A DNA stretch of 38,215 nt from positions 1 through 38,215 of IMG/VR virus record IMGVR_UViG_3300047673_000284; one strand, 5' to 3'. Under the pieces are notes generated by a model. It saw nothing but the letters and a program-made list of their open reading frames with translations. It was not told the origin of the DNA and made no database searches. This document shows positions 3,301 through 36,119 of the stretch, piece by piece. The translations under genes and the position numbers were made by a program. Numbering within the stretch: position 1 is the stretch's first letter; each line of letters opens with the position of its first letter. The DNA comes from a virus.

Positions 3301-3338
3301 ATCAGCCGCCCAATGCGATCACGGCGCGGGCGGCTGAT
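3301..3338 (+). promoter_or_regulatory. 11-bp hairpin before the replication initiator gene
   Basis: ATCAGCCGCCC at 3301-3311 pairs perfectly with 3328-3338 around a 16-base loop. The loop contains one iteron half-site, CGATCAC at 3316-3322. There is no T run. It sits 23 bases before the initiator start and after the last small gene, so it may control initiator expression. A 32-codon frame at 3239-3337 overlaps it but has no supporting signal. Confidence 0.45.
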
Positions 3339-3361
3339 CTGAACCCCCTAGGAGATAACCG

Positions 3362-4339
3362 ATGGAAGGATACCACGAACCTACGACGCTGACAAGTAGC
3401 GCTCGCCCGCTCAAAGCCTACGAGTTTATCAGCACGCCCCCGATCCAATTGATCTTGGATGCCATCGCCGCGCACTGCGGCGTCGGCGGCACCATCCGGC
3501 CGGGCGTGCGCCGACTCGCCGCATGGGCGAACTATGCCAGCGCCGGGCGCATTAGCCCGTTGCTTGACCAGCTGGCCAGCGATGGCTGGATCTCCTATGA
3601 CCCGTCAACCGGCCTGATCACGCTCCTCGAAGATCCGAACGGCGGATCGATCACGCCGCGTGATCGCTGGATTGCCGATGCGGCGGACGATGCAGAGTCC
3701 GCGCCGATCACGCGGCGTGATCGCGATGAATCGCACTCTGATGCGGAATACGAATCGATCACGGCCCGTGATCGATCGGCGCCGCGCATGGAAGATCATG
3801 TCTTAGTAGCAGCAGCAGAGTCTGACTCTGAGTCTGCTGCTGCTAGATATAAATTACCATGCAGCGTCGAAACGATCACCGAACGTGATCGCTCCGCCGC
3901 GCTGCTGCTGGCCGAGCTGGGCGCCGACGACGTGATTATCGCCGATGCGCTGGCCGCCCGGCCCGATCTCACCCCGGAACAAATCCGCGCCAGCTGGGCG
4001 CATTTCGAGCCGCGCATCAAAGCCCAGCTGTGTACCGCTGGCGCATTCTTCTCGACAATCCGGCGCGGCCAGCTGCACGCCGCGCCGCCCGACCCGCAGC
4101 GCCCGCTCGATGTGGCGCGATACGCCGAGGATCCGGCCTACCAGCTCGGCAGCCAGGCGCCGCCACAGCGCGAGTCGATCCGCGACCGCGCCCTCCGGCT
4201 GCTCGGGCCGTGGACGGCTGAGAACCACCAGGCCATGGTGCGCAACACGATGTTTTTGCAGGGCCGGCTCGGGGCTGGCGACACCGATGCAGAGGCGCTC
4301 GCCGCGCTGGCCGACTACCGCACGGCGGTGCGCCGATGA
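3362..4339 (+). CDS. Replication initiator, lambda O-like, with origin iterons inside the gene
   Basis: The N-terminal part (about residues 10-85) looks like a winged-helix DNA-binding domain, with LDAIAAHCG, RPGVRRLAAWA and LLDQLASDGWI. A disordered linker (about 95-175) contains four copies of an ITxRDR peptide (SITPRDR, PITRRDR, SITARDR, TITERDR). The C-terminal region (180-325) resembles phage and plasmid initiator tails, including an AFFSTIRRG segment. Each ITxRDR is encoded by a 19-bp palindromic iteron. In lambda, the O protein binds four iterons located inside the O gene, and this arrangement matches closely. The expected role is to bind the iterons and recruit a helicase or helicase loader, although no helicase gene was found nearby. 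AGGAG lies upstream of the ATG, and the stop overlaps the next start as ATGA. Assignment by architecture is good; sequence-level homology to O is not claimed. Confidence 0.8.
   Translation: MEGYHEPTTLTSSARPLKAYEFISTPPIQLILDAIAAHCGVGGTIRPGVRRLAAWANYASAGRISPLLDQLASDGWISYDPSTGLITLLEDPNGGSITPRDRWIADAADDAESAPITRRDRDESHSDAEYESITARDRSAPRMEDHVLVAAAESDSESAAARYKLPCSVETITERDRSAALLLAELGADDVIIADALAARPDLTPEQIRASWAHFEPRIKAQLCTAGAFFSTIRRGQLHAAPPDPQRPLDVARYAEDPAYQLGSQAPPQRESIRDRALRLLGPWTAENHQAMVRNTMFLQGRLGAGDTDAEALAALADYRTAVRR
3648..3891 (+). repeat. Putative phage replication origin: four 19-bp iterons, hairpin and AT-rich patch
   Basis: Four copies of CGATCAC-N5-GTGATCG occur at 3648-3666, 3705-3723, 3756-3774 and 3873-3891. 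The 7-base arms are identical in every copy and only the central five bases differ. Spacings are 57, 51 and 117 bases, all multiples of three, so the copies also stay in coding frame. Between copies 3 and 4 lie a 13-bp hairpin (3807-3819 with 3833-3845) and the AT-rich stretch AGATATAAATTACCAT (3845-3860), the only such patch in this part. Each iteron contains two GATC sites. Iterons plus hairpin plus AT-rich patch inside an initiator gene is the layout of the lambda origin. A set of operators for a dimeric regulator is the alternative. Confidence 0.85.
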
Positions 4340-4710
4340 AGCCACGTGATCTGATTGCCACGGTCGCCGCCACGTTCGACGTGACGCTCGCGGACGTGCT
4401 CGGCCAGAGCCGTATGCGCCATGTCGCCGAGGCGCGCCAGGCGGCGGCCTGGGTGCTCAGGCGCGCGATTCCGGCCATCTCGCTGGAGCAGATCGGGCGG
4501 CTGTTGGGCGGGCGCGACCACACAACGATCATCCACAGTCTGGCCCAAGTCGAGCGGCGCTGTGCAGCCGATCCGCAGCTGCGCGCGGTGCTGCACAGCC
4601 TGCTGCCACAAGCGCCGCTGGTCACGCACCCGCGCGTGCCGCTCGACCAGGCCGGGAGCGCATGGTGGGTGGCGCAGAGCCGCGACAGCTTTTTTGTGAG
4701 GGCTGCATGA
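4336..4710 (+). CDS. Stand-alone DnaA domain IV protein
   Basis: Residues about 1-75 match the C-terminal DNA-binding domain of the bacterial initiator DnaA: the SRMRHVAEARQ helix, the EQIGRLLGG turn and the signature GGRDHTTIIHSL at 58-69. The ATPase and oligomerisation domains are absent, so it cannot open DNA alone. It could bind DnaA boxes at the phage origin or compete with host DnaA. The last 45 residues are unassigned. The gene overlaps the initiator by ATGA and so is translated with it, which supports a joint role in replication. I did not find a consensus TTATCCACA box by eye. The family assignment is secure; the role is inferred. Confidence 0.9.
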   Translation: MKPRDLIATVAATFDVTLADVLGQSRMRHVAEARQAAAWVLRRAIPAISLEQIGRLLGGRDHTTIIHSLAQVERRCAADPQLRAVLHSLLPQAPLVTHPRVPLDQAGSAWWVAQSRDSFFVRAA

Positions 4711-5243
4711 CCAAGCCGAAAACCCCCTGGCGCTGCCAGAAGTGCGGCGGCCTGGGCAAGATCATTCCGCGCGCCGCGCCGCGATCGAAGATCTGCGCCT
4801 GGTGTGACGACGAGCTCAAAAAAGCTGGCCAGCGCTGGTGTACGACCGGGCGGCACGGATCGGCCGATTGGACGGCGGGCGCGGCCATGTGCCGGGCCTG
4901 TCAGCGGGCCGCCAACCAGGCCTACCGCGCGGATCCCGCGCATCACGAAAAGGCGATCGCGGAAAGCCGCGCCTACCACGCCGCGCACTACGCGGAGCGG
5001 ATCGCCGCCAATCGCGCGTACTACCAGGCCCATCGGGCGGAGCTGCTCGACAAGAAGCGCGTGTACTACCAGGAGAAGCGCGAGCTGCTGAAAGCCAAAG
5101 CCCGCGCACACCGGCCGCACATCCCGGCCTGGTCGCGCGAGAAGGCGCGCAATCGCCAGCGCGCCAAGCACCAGATCTACCACCACAATCATAAGCTGAG
5201 TATGCGCCGGCGCTGGCTGGCGCGTTTGCGAGGCGCCGCATGA
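4707..5243 (+). CDS. Zinc-ribbon protein with basic helical repeats
   Basis: The N-terminus holds a ribbon Cys10-Cys13-Cys30-Cys33 introduced by TPWRC. A second Cys set follows at 45, 62 and 65. The rest is a long Tyr/Ala/Arg-rich helical region made of loose 13-residue repeats (ESRAYHAAHYAER, ANRAYYQAHRAEL and similar) ending very basic. This composition suggests nucleic-acid binding. Such repeats accompany HNH-type zinc proteins in phages, but no HNH catalytic motif is visible. ATG 4707 was chosen because it overlaps the previous stop as ATGA. The ribbon is a paralogue of the one in the gene at 2096. Function unknown. Confidence 0.8.
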   Translation: MTKPKTPWRCQKCGGLGKIIPRAAPRSKICAWCDDELKKAGQRWCTTGRHGSADWTAGAAMCRACQRAANQAYRADPAHHEKAIAESRAYHAAHYAERIAANRAYYQAHRAELLDKKRVYYQEKRELLKAKARAHRPHIPAWSREKARNRQRAKHQIYHHNHKLSMRRRWLARLRGAA

Positions 5244-6538: not shown

Positions 6539-7677
6539 CCACTGACACGATCGATGCGCCAGCCGATCTGTACGCGCTGGCGCAAGAGGAACAATCCGCG
6601 CTTGATCGCTGTGAGGCGGTGATCGCGCGCGGCGTCCAGACCTTTATCGAGGTTGGCGAGGCACTAACGGAAATTCGCGACAAGCTGCTCTATCGCTTCA
6701 GCCACAAAACCTTCGATCACTACTGCAAGGAGAAGTGGGGAATCGGCCGCGCTCGGGCTTACCAGCTCATGGACGCCGCGCCGATCGCGCGTGAATTGTC
6801 TACCCGGGTAGACAATCCGCCGGCGAACGAGAAGGAGGCGCGGGCCGTCGCCAAGTCCGCGCCCGCCGATCGCCCGCGCGTGATCGAGCGCGCGACGGAG
6901 ATCGCCGGCGGCGAACCGCGCACGGCGAAACATATCCAGCAGGCGGTAGCCGAGATCGCCGCGCCTTTTTGGCAATCCATCGACGCGCACCATCCGACGG
7001 CGCACCTCTGGAGGCGCGAGCGCCCCGATCTACTGAAATCGGCGTGTGGCATGTTCATCCAGAACCGCCTGCCCAGCGGCAGCACGGAGGCGGGACATTG
7101 CAGCAGCTGTGTGCGCGCGACGTGGCCGCAGGCCAAAGAGCAACCGAAGATTCCTGAAGTCGCGCCCGAGCTGCCGCCGGAGTTTGCGATCGTCCAGCGG
7201 CGCTTTGCGGCACATGGATGGAAGCTGATTCGGCATGGCGTATGGTACAAGCTCAGTCAACCAGATGGGACGCTGCACAATACCTATCCGACAATCGAGG
7301 CGCATGCCGCGACGCTTGAGGTATTGGATCGGGCAGCCGCCAGGCAGGGCGCCGCGCCGACGTTTGACCAGCAGTCCGACCGACAGGATCATATCGCCAA
7401 AGAGCAGCGCGATCGCGATCGGATCAGCACCGCCCGCGCCAACATCGGCGTGGGCAACATCGGCGATGCGCGGCGGATTCTCAGCACGATCGAGGTTTCG
7501 ACATGGGAGCGCGATCAGCTGCTCTGTCAGATCGCGCGGGGGGCGGCGCTGGCGTTTCTGGGCGATCAACGCGCGCGGCTGAAGCACTTCAGTGCGGCGG
7601 CGATGATCAGTCAGACGACCTTTACGCAGGCGCTCGATCACATCGAGGCGCTGCTTAATTACGTGGTGACCGAATGA
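6535..7677 (+). CDS. ParB/DUF3102-like DNA-binding protein
   Basis: Residues about 20-105 match the phage and plasmid family in which a protein with 'FIEVGEALTEIRD', 'YRFSHKTFDHYCKEKWGI' and 'ARAYQLMDAA' precedes a 'PPANEKEARAVA' segment. These proteins share the helix-turn-helix region of ParB-type partition proteins and are usually annotated as DNA-binding. The middle (about 140-200) has a Cys pair (CSSC) and is unassigned. The rest includes a short beta segment and a C-terminal helical, TPR-like region. A perfect 22-bp palindrome lies inside this gene at 6795-6816 and could be its own binding site. A partition or transcriptional role is possible, but no ParA is present in the window. Confidence 0.75.
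   Translation: MTTDTIDAPADLYALAQEEQSALDRCEAVIARGVQTFIEVGEALTEIRDKLLYRFSHKTFDHYCKEKWGIGRARAYQLMDAAPIARELSTRVDNPPANEKEARAVAKSAPADRPRVIERATEIAGGEPRTAKHIQQAVAEIAAPFWQSIDAHHPTAHLWRRERPDLLKSACGMFIQNRLPSGSTEAGHCSSCVRATWPQAKEQPKIPEVAPELPPEFAIVQRRFAAHGWKLIRHGVWYKLSQPDGTLHNTYPTIEAHAATLEVLDRAAARQGAAPTFDQQSDRQDHIAKEQRDRDRISTARANIGVGNIGDARRILSTIEVSTWERDQLLCQIARGAALAFLGDQRARLKHFSAAAMISQTTFTQALDHIEALLNYVVTE
6795..6816. promoter_or_regulatory. Perfect 22-bp palindrome inside the ParB-like gene
   Basis: ATTGTCTACCC at 6795-6805 is followed directly by its exact reverse complement at 6806-6816, with no spacer. It lies in the coding sequence of a ParB-like DNA-binding protein, so a self-bound operator or parS-like site is plausible. 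The encoded peptide (LSTRVDNPP) is in a conserved part of the family, so codon constraint may explain part of it. Confidence 0.45.
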
Positions 7678-10824: not shown

Positions 10825-11541
10825 CTAACCCCACCACCCCAGCACATCCACGAAGCCCTTGGCGATCGGCCCGTTCTCGGTCTTGATGAGCAGCGTTCGG
10901 TTGGCGGCGGCTGAGATGATCCCGCTTTCATAGGCGCGATTCTCCACGCCCAATCCGGTCACGGTCAGCATCGCCGCCGCCTGGAGGTTCGGGTCGGCGA
11001 CCTGCGGCCCGCAGCGGAAGATGATCCCCGGCAGCGCATCGAGCGACAGGCGCACGTTCAAGGCGGAGCAGACCGGGATGCCCAGCGGCGCGAGATTGAC
11101 CGTGACACTGTTGTCAAAGCCATCCTGATCAACAAACACCCGTATGCTGCCATTGGGCGCCCCATGGTAGGCGCCCGTTTGCACCTGCACGGCGCCTGGG
11201 ACACGCGCCGGCGGGCCGGCGGGCCGGATACTCGATCCTTCCCACGACGACCAATACATCCATCCGTCATGCGCAATGTCCAGCCAGCCGCGCCCGGTTC
11301 CGGCGCCACTGATCGGGACATGCACGAGTGCGCCGTTTTTGAGGACGAAGATCGAGAAGTACAGCGGCCCGCCATCCTTTTTCGCGCAGCAGCCGAGGTG
11401 CCAGATGGACGCGCCGTCCAGCGCCCAATTCATGGTCGCGCCACCGTAGGCCTCAACCGCTTGCGCCTGCGGCCCAGCAACGTCCGTTGTGCCGTCTTCG
11501 AGCTCCCAGCCATGTGGGAGTGTCAGCAATGATTCACTCAT
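10825..11541 (-). CDS. Last tail gene: possible tail-tip or receptor-binding protein
   Basis: The protein is mostly beta-strand, Trp- and Gly-rich (WLDIAHDGWMYWSSW), with several Cys residues. It has no clear enzyme motif. It is the most distal gene of the tail operon, where siphophages usually keep tail-tip, fibre or receptor-binding proteins. No match to a named family was made, so the role rests on position and composition. GAGG lies six bases before the ATG. Confidence 0.6.
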   Translation of the reverse strand: MSESLLTLPHGWELEDGTTDVAGPQAQAVEAYGGATMNWALDGASIWHLGCCAKKDGGPLYFSIFVLKNGALVHVPISGAGTGRGWLDIAHDGWMYWSSWEGSSIRPAGPPARVPGAVQVQTGAYHGAPNGSIRVFVDQDGFDNSVTVNLAPLGIPVCSALNVRLSLDALPGIIFRCGPQVADPNLQAAAMLTVTGLGVENRAYESGIISAAANRTLLIKTENGPIAKGFVDVLGWWG

Positions 11542-28041: not shown

Positions 28042-28071
28042 GCTCGGTCTCCTTCCAAGCCTCCGTGGTGA

Positions 28072-28127
28072 GCGCGCGACGGATAGCGGAGTCTCTATCT
28101 TTTCGGGCCGTCGCCCTAGTCGCGCGC
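28072..28127 (-). ncRNA. Possible three-way-junction RNA element after the capsid gene
   Basis: A 9-bp outer stem (28072-28080 with 28119-28127) encloses two inner hairpins, 28082-28086 with 28095-28099 and 28105-28108 with 28113-28116. It fills the gap between the capsid stop and the next gene. Possible roles are mRNA processing, stability or partial termination to raise capsid output. It may also be an accident of GC-rich sequence. Confidence 0.35.
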
Positions 28128-33477: not shown

Positions 33478-34036
33478 CTTGCACTACTCCAAATCGGACT
33501 CTGAGCGGCGCCCAGTCCTGCCCGCGCTGTTTGCAGATCTGGCAGTGGTCGGTCGCGCCGAGCACCCAGGTGCAATCATAGTTGCCGTCCCCCGCAAGCC
33601 GCTGCACGTCCCACATGCACGTACAGTTGGTCAAACACCGGCTGGATCCATCGGCCGGCATGGCCGGCAAAGGCAGCATATCGACCGCGCCCCGCCAGTA
33701 GGGCGTCTTAATCGACCCGGCGTACATATTCGCGCGCGCGTTCCACCCCGCCTGCCACTGGGATCCGTCCTGCAGCTCGATGCCGAACTCACCCAGAAAG
33801 CGCAGCTGCGTCGCGAGATCGGTGGTCACCGCCGTCTCCATCGCCGGCGTGAGCGCGTTCGTCTCACCCCCGGCCAGCATCGCCGCGCCGTGATAGCGTG
33901 CCAGTTGGCGGCTGACCTCCTGCTGCCAGGCCTGCACGCCGTCGGGATAGGCGGCCTCCAAACTGTCGGTCGCGGTCGCGATCAGCTTCGACAACCTAGC
34001 GATCAGCCAGGTCAGCGGCGACGGCGGGCTAGGCAC
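33470..34036 (-). CDS. MuF-like minor head protein with Cys cluster
   Basis: The C-terminal part shows the pattern WRGAVDMLPLPAMPADG, CLTNCTCMW and CQICKQRGQDW, known from Mu gpF/SPP1 gp7-type head proteins (Cys-pair zinc motifs near the end). The N-terminal part is helical. Such proteins sit inside or at the portal and may be injected with DNA. It begins with GTG 34036, overlapping the portal stop. It comes right after the portal, the standard position. Confidence 0.85.
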   Translation of the reverse strand: MPSPPSPLTWLIARLSKLIATATDSLEAAYPDGVQAWQQEVSRQLARYHGAAMLAGGETNALTPAMETAVTTDLATQLRFLGEFGIELQDGSQWQAGWNARANMYAGSIKTPYWRGAVDMLPLPAMPADGSSRCLTNCTCMWDVQRLAGDGNYDCTWVLGATDHCQICKQRGQDWAPLRVRFGVVQGG

Positions 34037-36119
34037 GCCGGGCCGCCTTGCCTAAGCGCTTCGCCCAGCCCATTTCCGACTCGAGCAGCGCGGCCGCGTC
34101 GTCATCCGCCGCGTCCTTGGTGGCCACGCCTGTCCCCAGTGGGGAGTCGAACCGCTCATCACCCCATGCGAGTGTGACTTGTGCGAATGTTACCGGCGTC
34201 TCGACACGGATGGCCGGCGTCGGCGCGTCACTCGGCACATACGCCACGGTGATGTGCGGCGTGAAGCCGTGATTCTGCGCGTAGTCGAAGCCTGATTGCT
34301 CGATCCAATCGACCAGGGACTGGCGCAACTCGGGCAGTCCCGGTACATCGGGCGAGACGAAGACCGCATTTGTGCCATCGTCTTCCGTATGAAAGAATCG
34401 CCCGAGTCCGTTGATGTCGCCCTTCAGCGGCTGGCCCTTTTCCGCCGCCCACTGCTTGACTGCCGCAACCAGACGATCTTTGTTCGTCGCCAGCGCCGTC
34501 TCGCTGCTGTCGCCCAGAAACGCCAGCGTGAGGTGCAGCGTATCGATCGGCTCGGTCACGCCCGCTTGCGCGGCGATCGTGCGTGCGGCGGCGGCATCGG
34601 GGTAGAGCGCGATCATCACGCCGGTGTGTCCAGCATCCTTGGTTGCCGTCGCTAGTCCCGGCGCTTGCTGCTTTGGCGGCGCGGTCGGCGCGCTCTGGAT
34701 GAGCGCGAGACTTGCCGGTGACAGGTCGCCACGATCGGGCTGTTGTTTTTCATCGTCACTGAGCTGCCCGCCGCTGGTCACGTCGCCCGCCACCAACTCC
34801 TGCGGCAGATCCTCACTGTCGACCGCTAGCTGGCGCGCCATCGCCGGGCTAATCTCGCCAGAGTCTACCTGCACCTTGCGGGTGTCGGCGCGCAGCTTCT
34901 GCACCTCAGCACGCGCCTTCTGGTCGCGCATATCGTGCTCGTCCACGAATTGCAGTTCGGTCGTCGCCGGCAGCACGCGGTCGCTCACCGTCTGTTCCCA
35001 CCACTTGATGAACGCCGCGATCCCAATGCCCTGCCCGGCTTCCTGGAGCACCACCGTCTGCGTGCCGGTGCCCAGCCCCTGCCCGGATAAGGGCTGGATA
35101 TCCTGCACCGGCACGCCGATGCAGTTGGCGTAGATCAGGTAGCCGTTGTCGCGCTCGTCTTTGGGCACGAAGTTGCTGAGCAGCTCCTTCAGCTTGACCT
35201 CGACCATGCTGATCGGCGTGTCGCTGGGGATCGCCCCCAGGATCGTGCCGAGATAGTACACCAGCCCGCGCGCCTGGGCGTCGGCCTCGCCACTCCGGAG
35301 GATCGCCTGCAACGTCGGGTCGTTAATGCCCTGCAAAAACACCAGCTTATTCGCGCCGCCGCCGGTCAGGTTCTCGTAGACCAGCTGCTCCATCGCGGCC
35401 AGCTTGGCGATCGTCTTGTAGGCGCGATCGGCAGCGCTGCGCCCGACGCCGAACAGCTCGGCGCGCGGGCTGGGTTGGTCGGCATACATCAGCACCTGAT
35501 CCCACCGGAGGATCTGCTGCATGCCGTTGATGGGCATGTAGCGCACCGGGTAGGCCAGATTGCCGGTGCGAATGCAGCGGAGGGAGTCCATGTGGTAGAG
35601 CCCGGTGATCTTCGCGCCGGGTGAGGAGGTGGTCACCGCCGCCTCGCTGAAATCTTGTCGCAGCGCGCCGCTCACGATCTGCGGCTGGGCGGCCTTGACG
35701 CGGATCGGCGTGGTCGTGTCGCCCTGCCTGCGAATGCGGATAAACACGCCGTTGTTGGGCAGCAGCAGATCCTGCACGACCTTGAGCGCGAACGGAACCC
35801 AGCCCTCGCCGCCGTTCGCCCGCTTCAGCAGCTCCTGGCTGGCCGCGACTTTGCGCGACGAGTCCGTGCTGTCGCTCACGATGTAGCCGTGCGCCGCAAA
35901 CTTGGTGGCCGTGCGCGCGACCGCGGCCGCCCACATCGACTCCTTTTCGAGCGTGTTACAGAGTACCCAGTCGCGGCGCGGGCTCCAGTAGGTTGGGAGG
36001 TCGGTGTAGGACGGCGGCGACATCAGCCAGGGGAAGGCCAGGCCGAACACCGCCGGGGCGCTCGACGGGTACTCCAGCGTGTTGCCCTGGATGGCCGAGG
36101 GGGCGAGGGTGTCAGTCAT
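34029..36119 (-). CDS. Portal protein fused to a 2H phosphoesterase domain
   Basis: Residues 1-420 are a portal: an N-terminal FPWLMSPPSYTDLPTYW stretch, ANGGEGWVPFALKVVQ, a DIQPLSGQGLGTGTQT clip-like segment and a helical crown (KARAEVQKLRADTRK). Residues about 495-655 are a 2H phosphoesterase with both catalytic motifs, His529-Leu-Thr531 in HLTLAFLGD and His622-Ile-Thr624 in TPHITVAYV. Known 2H enzymes include 2',5'-RNA-ligase/cyclic phosphodiesterases and the anti-CBASS protein Acb1. Whether this one degrades immune cyclic nucleotides or processes RNA is unknown. ATKDA peptides flank the domain at 492-496 and 666-670. The ATG overlaps the upstream small gene (TGATG). Confidence 0.9.
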   Translation of the reverse strand: MTDTLAPSAIQGNTLEYPSSAPAVFGLAFPWLMSPPSYTDLPTYWSPRRDWVLCNTLEKESMWAAAVARTATKFAAHGYIVSDSTDSSRKVAASQELLKRANGGEGWVPFALKVVQDLLLPNNGVFIRIRRQGDTTTPIRVKAAQPQIVSGALRQDFSEAAVTTSSPGAKITGLYHMDSLRCIRTGNLAYPVRYMPINGMQQILRWDQVLMYADQPSPRAELFGVGRSAADRAYKTIAKLAAMEQLVYENLTGGGANKLVFLQGINDPTLQAILRSGEADAQARGLVYYLGTILGAIPSDTPISMVEVKLKELLSNFVPKDERDNGYLIYANCIGVPVQDIQPLSGQGLGTGTQTVVLQEAGQGIGIAAFIKWWEQTVSDRVLPATTELQFVDEHDMRDQKARAEVQKLRADTRKVQVDSGEISPAMARQLAVDSEDLPQELVAGDVTSGGQLSDDEKQQPDRGDLSPASLALIQSAPTAPPKQQAPGLATATKDAGHTGVMIALYPDAAAARTIAAQAGVTEPIDTLHLTLAFLGDSSETALATNKDRLVAAVKQWAAEKGQPLKGDINGLGRFFHTEDDGTNAVFVSPDVPGLPELRQSLVDWIEQSGFDYAQNHGFTPHITVAYVPSDAPTPAIRVETPVTFAQVTLAWGDERFDSPLGTGVATKDAADDDAAALLESEMGWAKRLGKAARRA

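Follow-up and report, generated by a model that had tools for sequence, protein, structure and literature searches.

A candidate replication origin within the putative initiator gene of a phage of probable Chloroflexales host

The putative initiator gene and its surroundings

The window analysed here is the whole of an IMG/VR virus record (IMGVR_UViG_3300047673_000284, positions 1-38,215; 38,215 nt). Pfam and PHROG scans of its ORFs revealed an integrase (869-1906), a tape measure protein, a terminase and a DnaQ-type exonuclease, recognised no helicase, helicase loader, primase or polymerase, and left many ORFs with no assignable function; neither ParA nor ParB was recognised among the window ORFs. 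A large minus-strand ORF in the structural region (34029-36119) carries a 2'-5' RNA ligase/LigT-type domain at its C-terminus, and an int-alpA RNA (Rfam RF02996, 45.5 bits) is found at 28060-28126 on the minus strand, distant from the integrase gene.

The presumed attachment site (att), at 746-785, is the 3' half of a tRNA-Asn. A 38-mer of this half has matches in Chloroflexota genomes only, nearly all of them labelled Chloroflexales (Roseiflexus, Kouleothrix, Chloroflexaceae), and in Kouleothrix aurantiaca (L179) the same half-tRNA-Asn precedes an integrase that shares 74% identity with that of the window. In light of these two observations the host is placed in the Chloroflexales, near Kouleothrix/Roseiflexus and probably close to Kouleothrix, which bears out the Chloroflexota host assumed when the DNA was read from its letters alone.

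The putative replication initiator gene, a plus-strand ORF at 3362-4339, translates into 325 aa comprising a putative N-terminal winged helix (about aa 15-90), a linker that carries the sites described below (aa 91-178) and a C-terminal helical part. An AF2 model of the N-domain (mean pLDDT 73) has the order beta-alpha-alpha-alpha-beta-beta that is expected for a winged helix; prediction of the whole protein was poor (mean pLDDT 50), too poor for use. Many of the PDB matches of the N-domain were winged-helix regulators; all were generic and weak, the best E in Foldseek being 0.47 and the best Z in VIA 3.1, with the structures of lambda O and RepA_N absent from them, which excludes neither.

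At the sequence level, no family in Pfam, PHROG or NCBIfam matched the initiator. Phage_rep_O (PF04492) gave no match to the whole protein at E up to 1, nor, at E up to 10, to its N-part, its C-part or two relatives, in a run in which the control, lambda O (NC_001416), and the protein of contig L125 scored 5.7e-36 and 2.3e-10, respectively. Likewise, there was no Pfam match to HTH_36 (PF13730), to which the initiator of contig L006 matches at 2.9e-6, and no Pfam or NCBIfam match of the N-domain to RepA_N of the pSK41 type, the latter in a run that had no positive control. An NCBIfam match to cas_Csy1 (E = 0.003) was disregarded as far below the cut-off.

Two further features adjoin the gene. 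Directly before its ribosome-binding site is a hairpin (3304-3339, plus strand; ATCAGCCGCCC...GGGCGGCTGAT) that is kept in all relatives and that has two compensated pairs in the relative L005 (ATCGGCAGCCC...GGGCTGCCGAT). It is probably a transcript structure, and it may control initiator expression from outside the origin proper. The end of the initiator gene is overlapped by a plus-strand gene for a stand-alone DnaA domain IV-like protein with no ATPase (4336-4710; PF08299, E = 2e-19), which is absent from the loci of the relatives L005, L145 and L192 and which in L006 adjoins the initiator module. There are no DnaA boxes (TTWTNCACA) in the window, and none at up to one mismatch near the candidate origin, so the DnaA-IV protein is not obviously active there.

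Palindromic sites, hairpin and weak duplex

The sequence-only reading drew attention to four palindromes with invariant arms, placed in frame within the gene, and to a hairpin and a local AT-rich patch between the third and fourth copies; each of these was found where it had been described. The palindrome CGATCAC-N5-GTGATCG occurs with no mismatch at 3648-3666, 3705-3723, 3756-3774 and 3873-3891 (centres GCCGC, GCGGC, GGCCC and CGAAC, respectively), 286-530 bp into the coding region, and there is no further exact copy anywhere in the window. Successive sites start 57, 51 and 117 bp apart, all distances divisible by three, and they read in the initiator frame as ITxRDR preceded by S, P, S and T. 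Such clustering is far beyond chance: for identical-arm palindromes (7 nt, gap 3-7) within 300 bp the maximum is four copies, versus one in all 100 of 100 Markov-1 random windows with the dinucleotide make-up of the window, and none of 20,000 synonymous-codon shuffles of the gene reached four. Almost all other viral contigs with the 19-mer have it as a single copy, with no comparable cluster. Abutting site 1 is a palindrome of another type, GATCC-N7-GGATC (3632-3648), one of only two in the window and also present in L005 (5271).

Between sites 3 and 4, TAGCAGCAGCAGA (3807-3819) pairs with TCTGCTGCTGCTA (3833-3845) in a hairpin (3807-3845) with perfect 13-bp arms, whose DNA fold has a z of -4.0. 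It is entered by a conserved block (3788-3814, plus strand) containing GATCATGTCTTAGTAGCAGCA (3794-3814), which is identical in all four phages of the family; an IMG/VR search with the 18-mer ATCATGTCTTAGTAGCAG from this block returned only the three relative contigs, and the 18-mer is absent from the 158 Chloroflexia genomes searched. On the other side is the AT-rich patch, in which 3843-3860 is 78% A+T in a genome of 35% A+T. Of the 38,195 stretches of 20 bp in the window, the one that starts at 3840 has the lowest stability by nearest-neighbour energy, and at 40-60 bp the region still ranks among the few weakest duplexes of the window; the patch (3840-3861) is the presumed unwinding element. 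Its TATAAA is present in L192 too and is weaker in L145, and no promoter was called in it. The candidate origin region is also the densest 306 bp of the window for GATC (14 copies, from 3589), a motif that occurs 436 times in the window versus about 123 expected from base composition.

Conservation and change among the relatives

The IMG/VR searches yielded only three relatives of the initiator: L005/L156 (95% identical), L145 (68% in the alignment) and L192 (61% in the N-domain and about 49% over the whole protein). No homologues were found by tblastn in annotated phages, and an alignment search of genome contigs and the 158 Chloroflexia genomes gave nothing convincing. A single match in L188 (E = 0.008) overlies a histidine-kinase gene and was set aside.

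Between the window and L005, none of the 56 arm bases has changed, compared with 4 of the 20 N5 bases, one per site, and 4 of 230 in the remainder of 3602-3907. The N5 excess over the rest is significant (p = 0.0017); taken by themselves, the arm bases are not numerous enough to reach significance. Three of the four N5 changes alter an amino acid, one of them turning an R of ITxRDR into a C; since residues change while the arms stay fixed, the ITxRDR peptide is not what is kept. In L145 the sites are kept at matching positions, and changes are confined to the outermost bases in two of the four. The check proposed with the original reading, that arms would be conserved in relatives while N5 and codons vary, was therefore positive in two of them, L005 and L145. 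The N5 is not wholly free, because it ends in C at 11 of the 12 sites in the three phages that have CGATCAC-type arms.

Synonymous changes against L005 affect 3 of 95 codons in 3602-3907, as opposed to 17 of 76 and 12 of 77 in the flanks (29 of 153; p = 1.6e-4), and it is this suppression that gives the putative extent of the DNA element, 3602-3907, a footprint resting on few independent comparisons because only four family members are known. A recent transfer of the segment between the window phage and L005 could also lower the synonymous count, so the more distant relatives weigh more.

The most distant of these, L192, provided an unplanned comparison that is stronger than the search for conserved arms. 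It has none of the CGATCAC-type sites of the window; at the same linker positions are five GATCC-N6/7-GGATC palindromes (1626, 1646, 1691, 1743 and 1853), and the turn and recognition-helix stretch reads YASAGHVAELLGQLA where the window has YASAGRISPLLDQLA. Little has changed in any of the four phages in the block that separates the last two sites: it shows 2 of 19 synonymous changes between the window and L192, versus 41 of 98 for the N and C parts (p = 0.009), and 1 of 18 between L145 and L192, versus 44 of 95 (p = 0.001), the N and C parts having about 42-46% synonymous changes in the L192 comparisons. In the L192 hairpin one CAG is missing from the left arm and one CTG from the right, and because the triplet loss is matched, 11 bp still pair. 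A joint change of sites and DNA-binding domain beside a constant block is the pattern that a specific initiator with its putative origin predicts. The GATCC-N7-GGATC palindrome at 3632 has the same type and codon position as the first site of L192 and is possibly a leftover of the older site type, unless it arose by chance.

The candidate origin, its alternatives and its counterparts

Because the palindromic sites, the DNA-level constraint, the concerted switch, the constant hairpin/AT block and the weak duplex coincide, the segment of about 300 bp at 3602-3907 is likely the replication origin of the phage, located within its own initiator gene, and we infer that replication starts there. In the proposed mechanism the initiator would dimerise on each palindrome through its putative N-terminal winged helix, with one subunit on either GATCAC half, and the four occupied sites would come together in a nucleoprotein assembly that puts strain on the duplex. 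The strained duplex would open at the AT patch (3840-3861), beside the hairpin, and the host replicative helicase would then be recruited by the C-terminal part of the initiator, by a host factor or by the hairpin. Counting against an origin are the wide and uneven spacing of the sites, the failure of the protein to match an established initiator family, the poor whole-protein model and weak structural matches of its N-domain, and the lack of a recognised helicase loader beside the initiator, unlike lambda P or SPP1 gp39. The hoped-for support from GC skew did not materialise: there is no clear turning point at 3.7 kb, and the skew tracks gene direction. It is conceivable, if rather doubtful, that GATCATGTCTTAGTAGCAGCA, the hairpin and the AT patch form a separate, host-recognised signal for helicase or primase loading. 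If so, the origin would combine lambda-like dyad iterons with a hairpin-dependent loading site and would have no need of a phage loader.

Among alternative functions, the one that survives best is that the palindromes are operators for expression, bound by the initiator acting as a transcription regulator or by another phage repressor. A half-site, CGATCACG, does lie at 3316, 46 bp upstream of the initiator start, and an XRE-type repressor gene of the unrelated contig L127 is flanked by dyads that share this half-site (CGATCACTAAACGTGATCG). Nevertheless, the upstream half-site is absent from L005, L145 and L192, the four sites themselves lie deep within the coding region, where no plus-strand promoter was called, they are accompanied by the least stable duplex of the window and by a hairpin that is itself conserved, and their placement in a linker is repeated in recognisable replication initiators. 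Operator function is accordingly improbable here. The L127 dyads (CGATCACTAAACGTGATCG and AATCACGGATCGTGATC, 7347-7402) stand directly upstream of the repressor gene, so similar dyads are probably operators elsewhere.

Function in RNA, with the palindromes as 7-bp mRNA hairpins that together with the 13-bp hairpin control translation or transcript stability, is less likely still. Conserved arms around a variable loop would fit RNA hairpins too, one L145 site has changed both of its outer bases together, and the 13-bp hairpin is strong. Stems, however, require pairing rather than identity, and the arms share one sequence within each phage and change jointly to another in L192, whose sites (5-bp arms, 6-7-nt gaps) would make poor stems; the single-site folds tested were no better than shuffles (z of -0.9 and -1.4, DNA parameters), and Rfam has no match at the sites.

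That ITxRDR is a repeated peptide motif, of which the DNA palindrome is a by-product, is very hard to sustain. Every copy is in frame, and ITERDR/H is well kept in L145, but the Arg codon CGT, used in the right arm of all four sites, serves none of the 23 other Arg in the gene (7% in the other window genes), and in L005 the peptide varies, both in x and by the R-to-C change, over fixed DNA arms. The peptides of L192 (IPRGID, IPSSDR, DPEGDQ, IPPSDH) are dissimilar over a single type of DNA palindrome, and the protein sequence in the origin region of pSK41 is reported to be dispensable (PMC5703833). The joint switch of site and domain is predicted neither by RNA hairpins nor by peptide repeats. 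A reading as partition (parS-like) or other segregation sites is suggested by contig L124, in which a ParB-type gene ends in clustered identical palindromes, but it is about as improbable: the window has no recognised ParA or ParB, the phage carries an integrase and a tRNA-Asn att, and a melting patch is unnecessary for partition sites. The L124 cluster (10910-11001) consists of three TGGGACACCGTGTCCCA-type palindromes and is a possible parS inside parB.

Returning to the candidate origin, a close parallel in design is phage lambda, whose ori consists of four 18-19-bp dyad iterons and an A+T-rich element inside the O gene (PMC5043065, PMC6022878), and in which O dimers on the four dyads open the adjoining 40-bp A+T element (PMC5043065; PMC6022878). 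As in lambda, four in-frame dyads lie in the linker of an initiator with an N-terminal DNA-binding domain, putative in the window, adjoining an easily melted patch, and the lambda dyads have comparable arms of about 5-6 bp around a 5-bp centre (TCCCTC-AAAAC-GAGGGA). Several differences are apparent. The spacing is 57/51/117 in the window versus 20/24/23 in lambda, the patch lies between sites 3 and 4 by a conserved hairpin whereas that of lambda is to one side, and the initiator lacks detectable Phage_rep_O homology, with no P-like loader gene recognised in the window. The description of the locus as lambda-type thus holds for the working plan, an initiator gene with its own dyad sites and an easily melted patch; it does not extend to membership in the family of lambda O, because there is no Phage_rep_O match, the spacing is 51-117 bp and there is an extra conserved hairpin.

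Other systems share parts of this plan. In SPP1, the oriL repeats are located in gene 38, so that the origin is likewise inside a replisome-organiser gene and comprises repeats and an AT-rich unwinding element, but SPP1 has direct repeats, a loader (gp39), a helicase (gp40) and a second origin, oriR (PMC6316719). In pSK41 the origin is central in rep, between a winged-helix N-domain, which is exchangeable in plasmids of this RepA_N type (pPR9), and a C-terminal partner domain (PMC5703833); pSK41 differs in being a plasmid, in having no sequence similarity that could be found, and in that its C-domain contacts DnaG (PMC5703833). By its in-frame linker dyads and easily melted DNA, the candidate falls into the working class of intragenic origins. 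The general design is known from lambda, and the candidate in the window is likely a distinct instance of different construction: its initiator matches no recognised family, its sites are widely spaced and it has an additional conserved hairpin block.

No described origin of this kind was found for a Chloroflexota phage in the open-access papers searched, and the locus offers a nucleotide-level origin candidate from a phylum whose phages have received very little molecular study. Furthermore, the four relatives constitute a natural experiment in which recognition sites and helix changed jointly while the hairpin and melting patch stayed constant. Comparing them tells phage-specific recognition apart from the parts of the origin that presumably face the host, with no need for mutagenesis, and opens specificity swaps to direct testing.

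Unrelated winged-helix initiators, too, have sites encoded in frame in their linkers, and lambda O, the control, is built alike, a recurrence that favours the origin reading of the window. The HTH_36 protein of L006, which was found via its DnaA-IV gene, has five linker dyads of 16-18 bp in a 21-bp register, including TTGACACCTGTGTCAA and TTGATCCCAGGATCAA, and behind it come a DnaC/IstB-type ATPase and, next, the DnaA-IV gene; the Phage_rep_O protein of L125 has linker dyads TGTCCACGCCTGTGGACA. Besides its tRNA-Asn att and related integrase, the Kouleothrix aurantiaca contig resembles the window in encoding a winged-helix-like protein with linker-encoded repeats (3653-4762), but these have an 18-bp period around TTGTCCAAAGTGACACGA, and the similarity between the initiators is weak. 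Distant relatives of the Kouleothrix protein in Chloroflexia genomes have up to 22 dyads, mostly in 21-bp steps, so that the recurrence includes arrays of more than 20 sites. Dyad-array loci were located at L207 1725-2529 (G024), L208 781-1756 (G026), L209 1352-1574 (G045) and L210 2213-2414 (G068), in winged-helix-like ORFs of 423-661 aa whose linkers encode 6-22 dyads of the form RCGAY-N6-RTCGY (e.g. ATGCGACGCCAGAGTCGCAT), mostly in 21-bp steps, with a repeated peptide like DATPESHDAILGSY. These ORFs look like initiators carrying their own iteron arrays; a DnaC/IstB-type ATPase comes after one of them and an actin-like gene after another.
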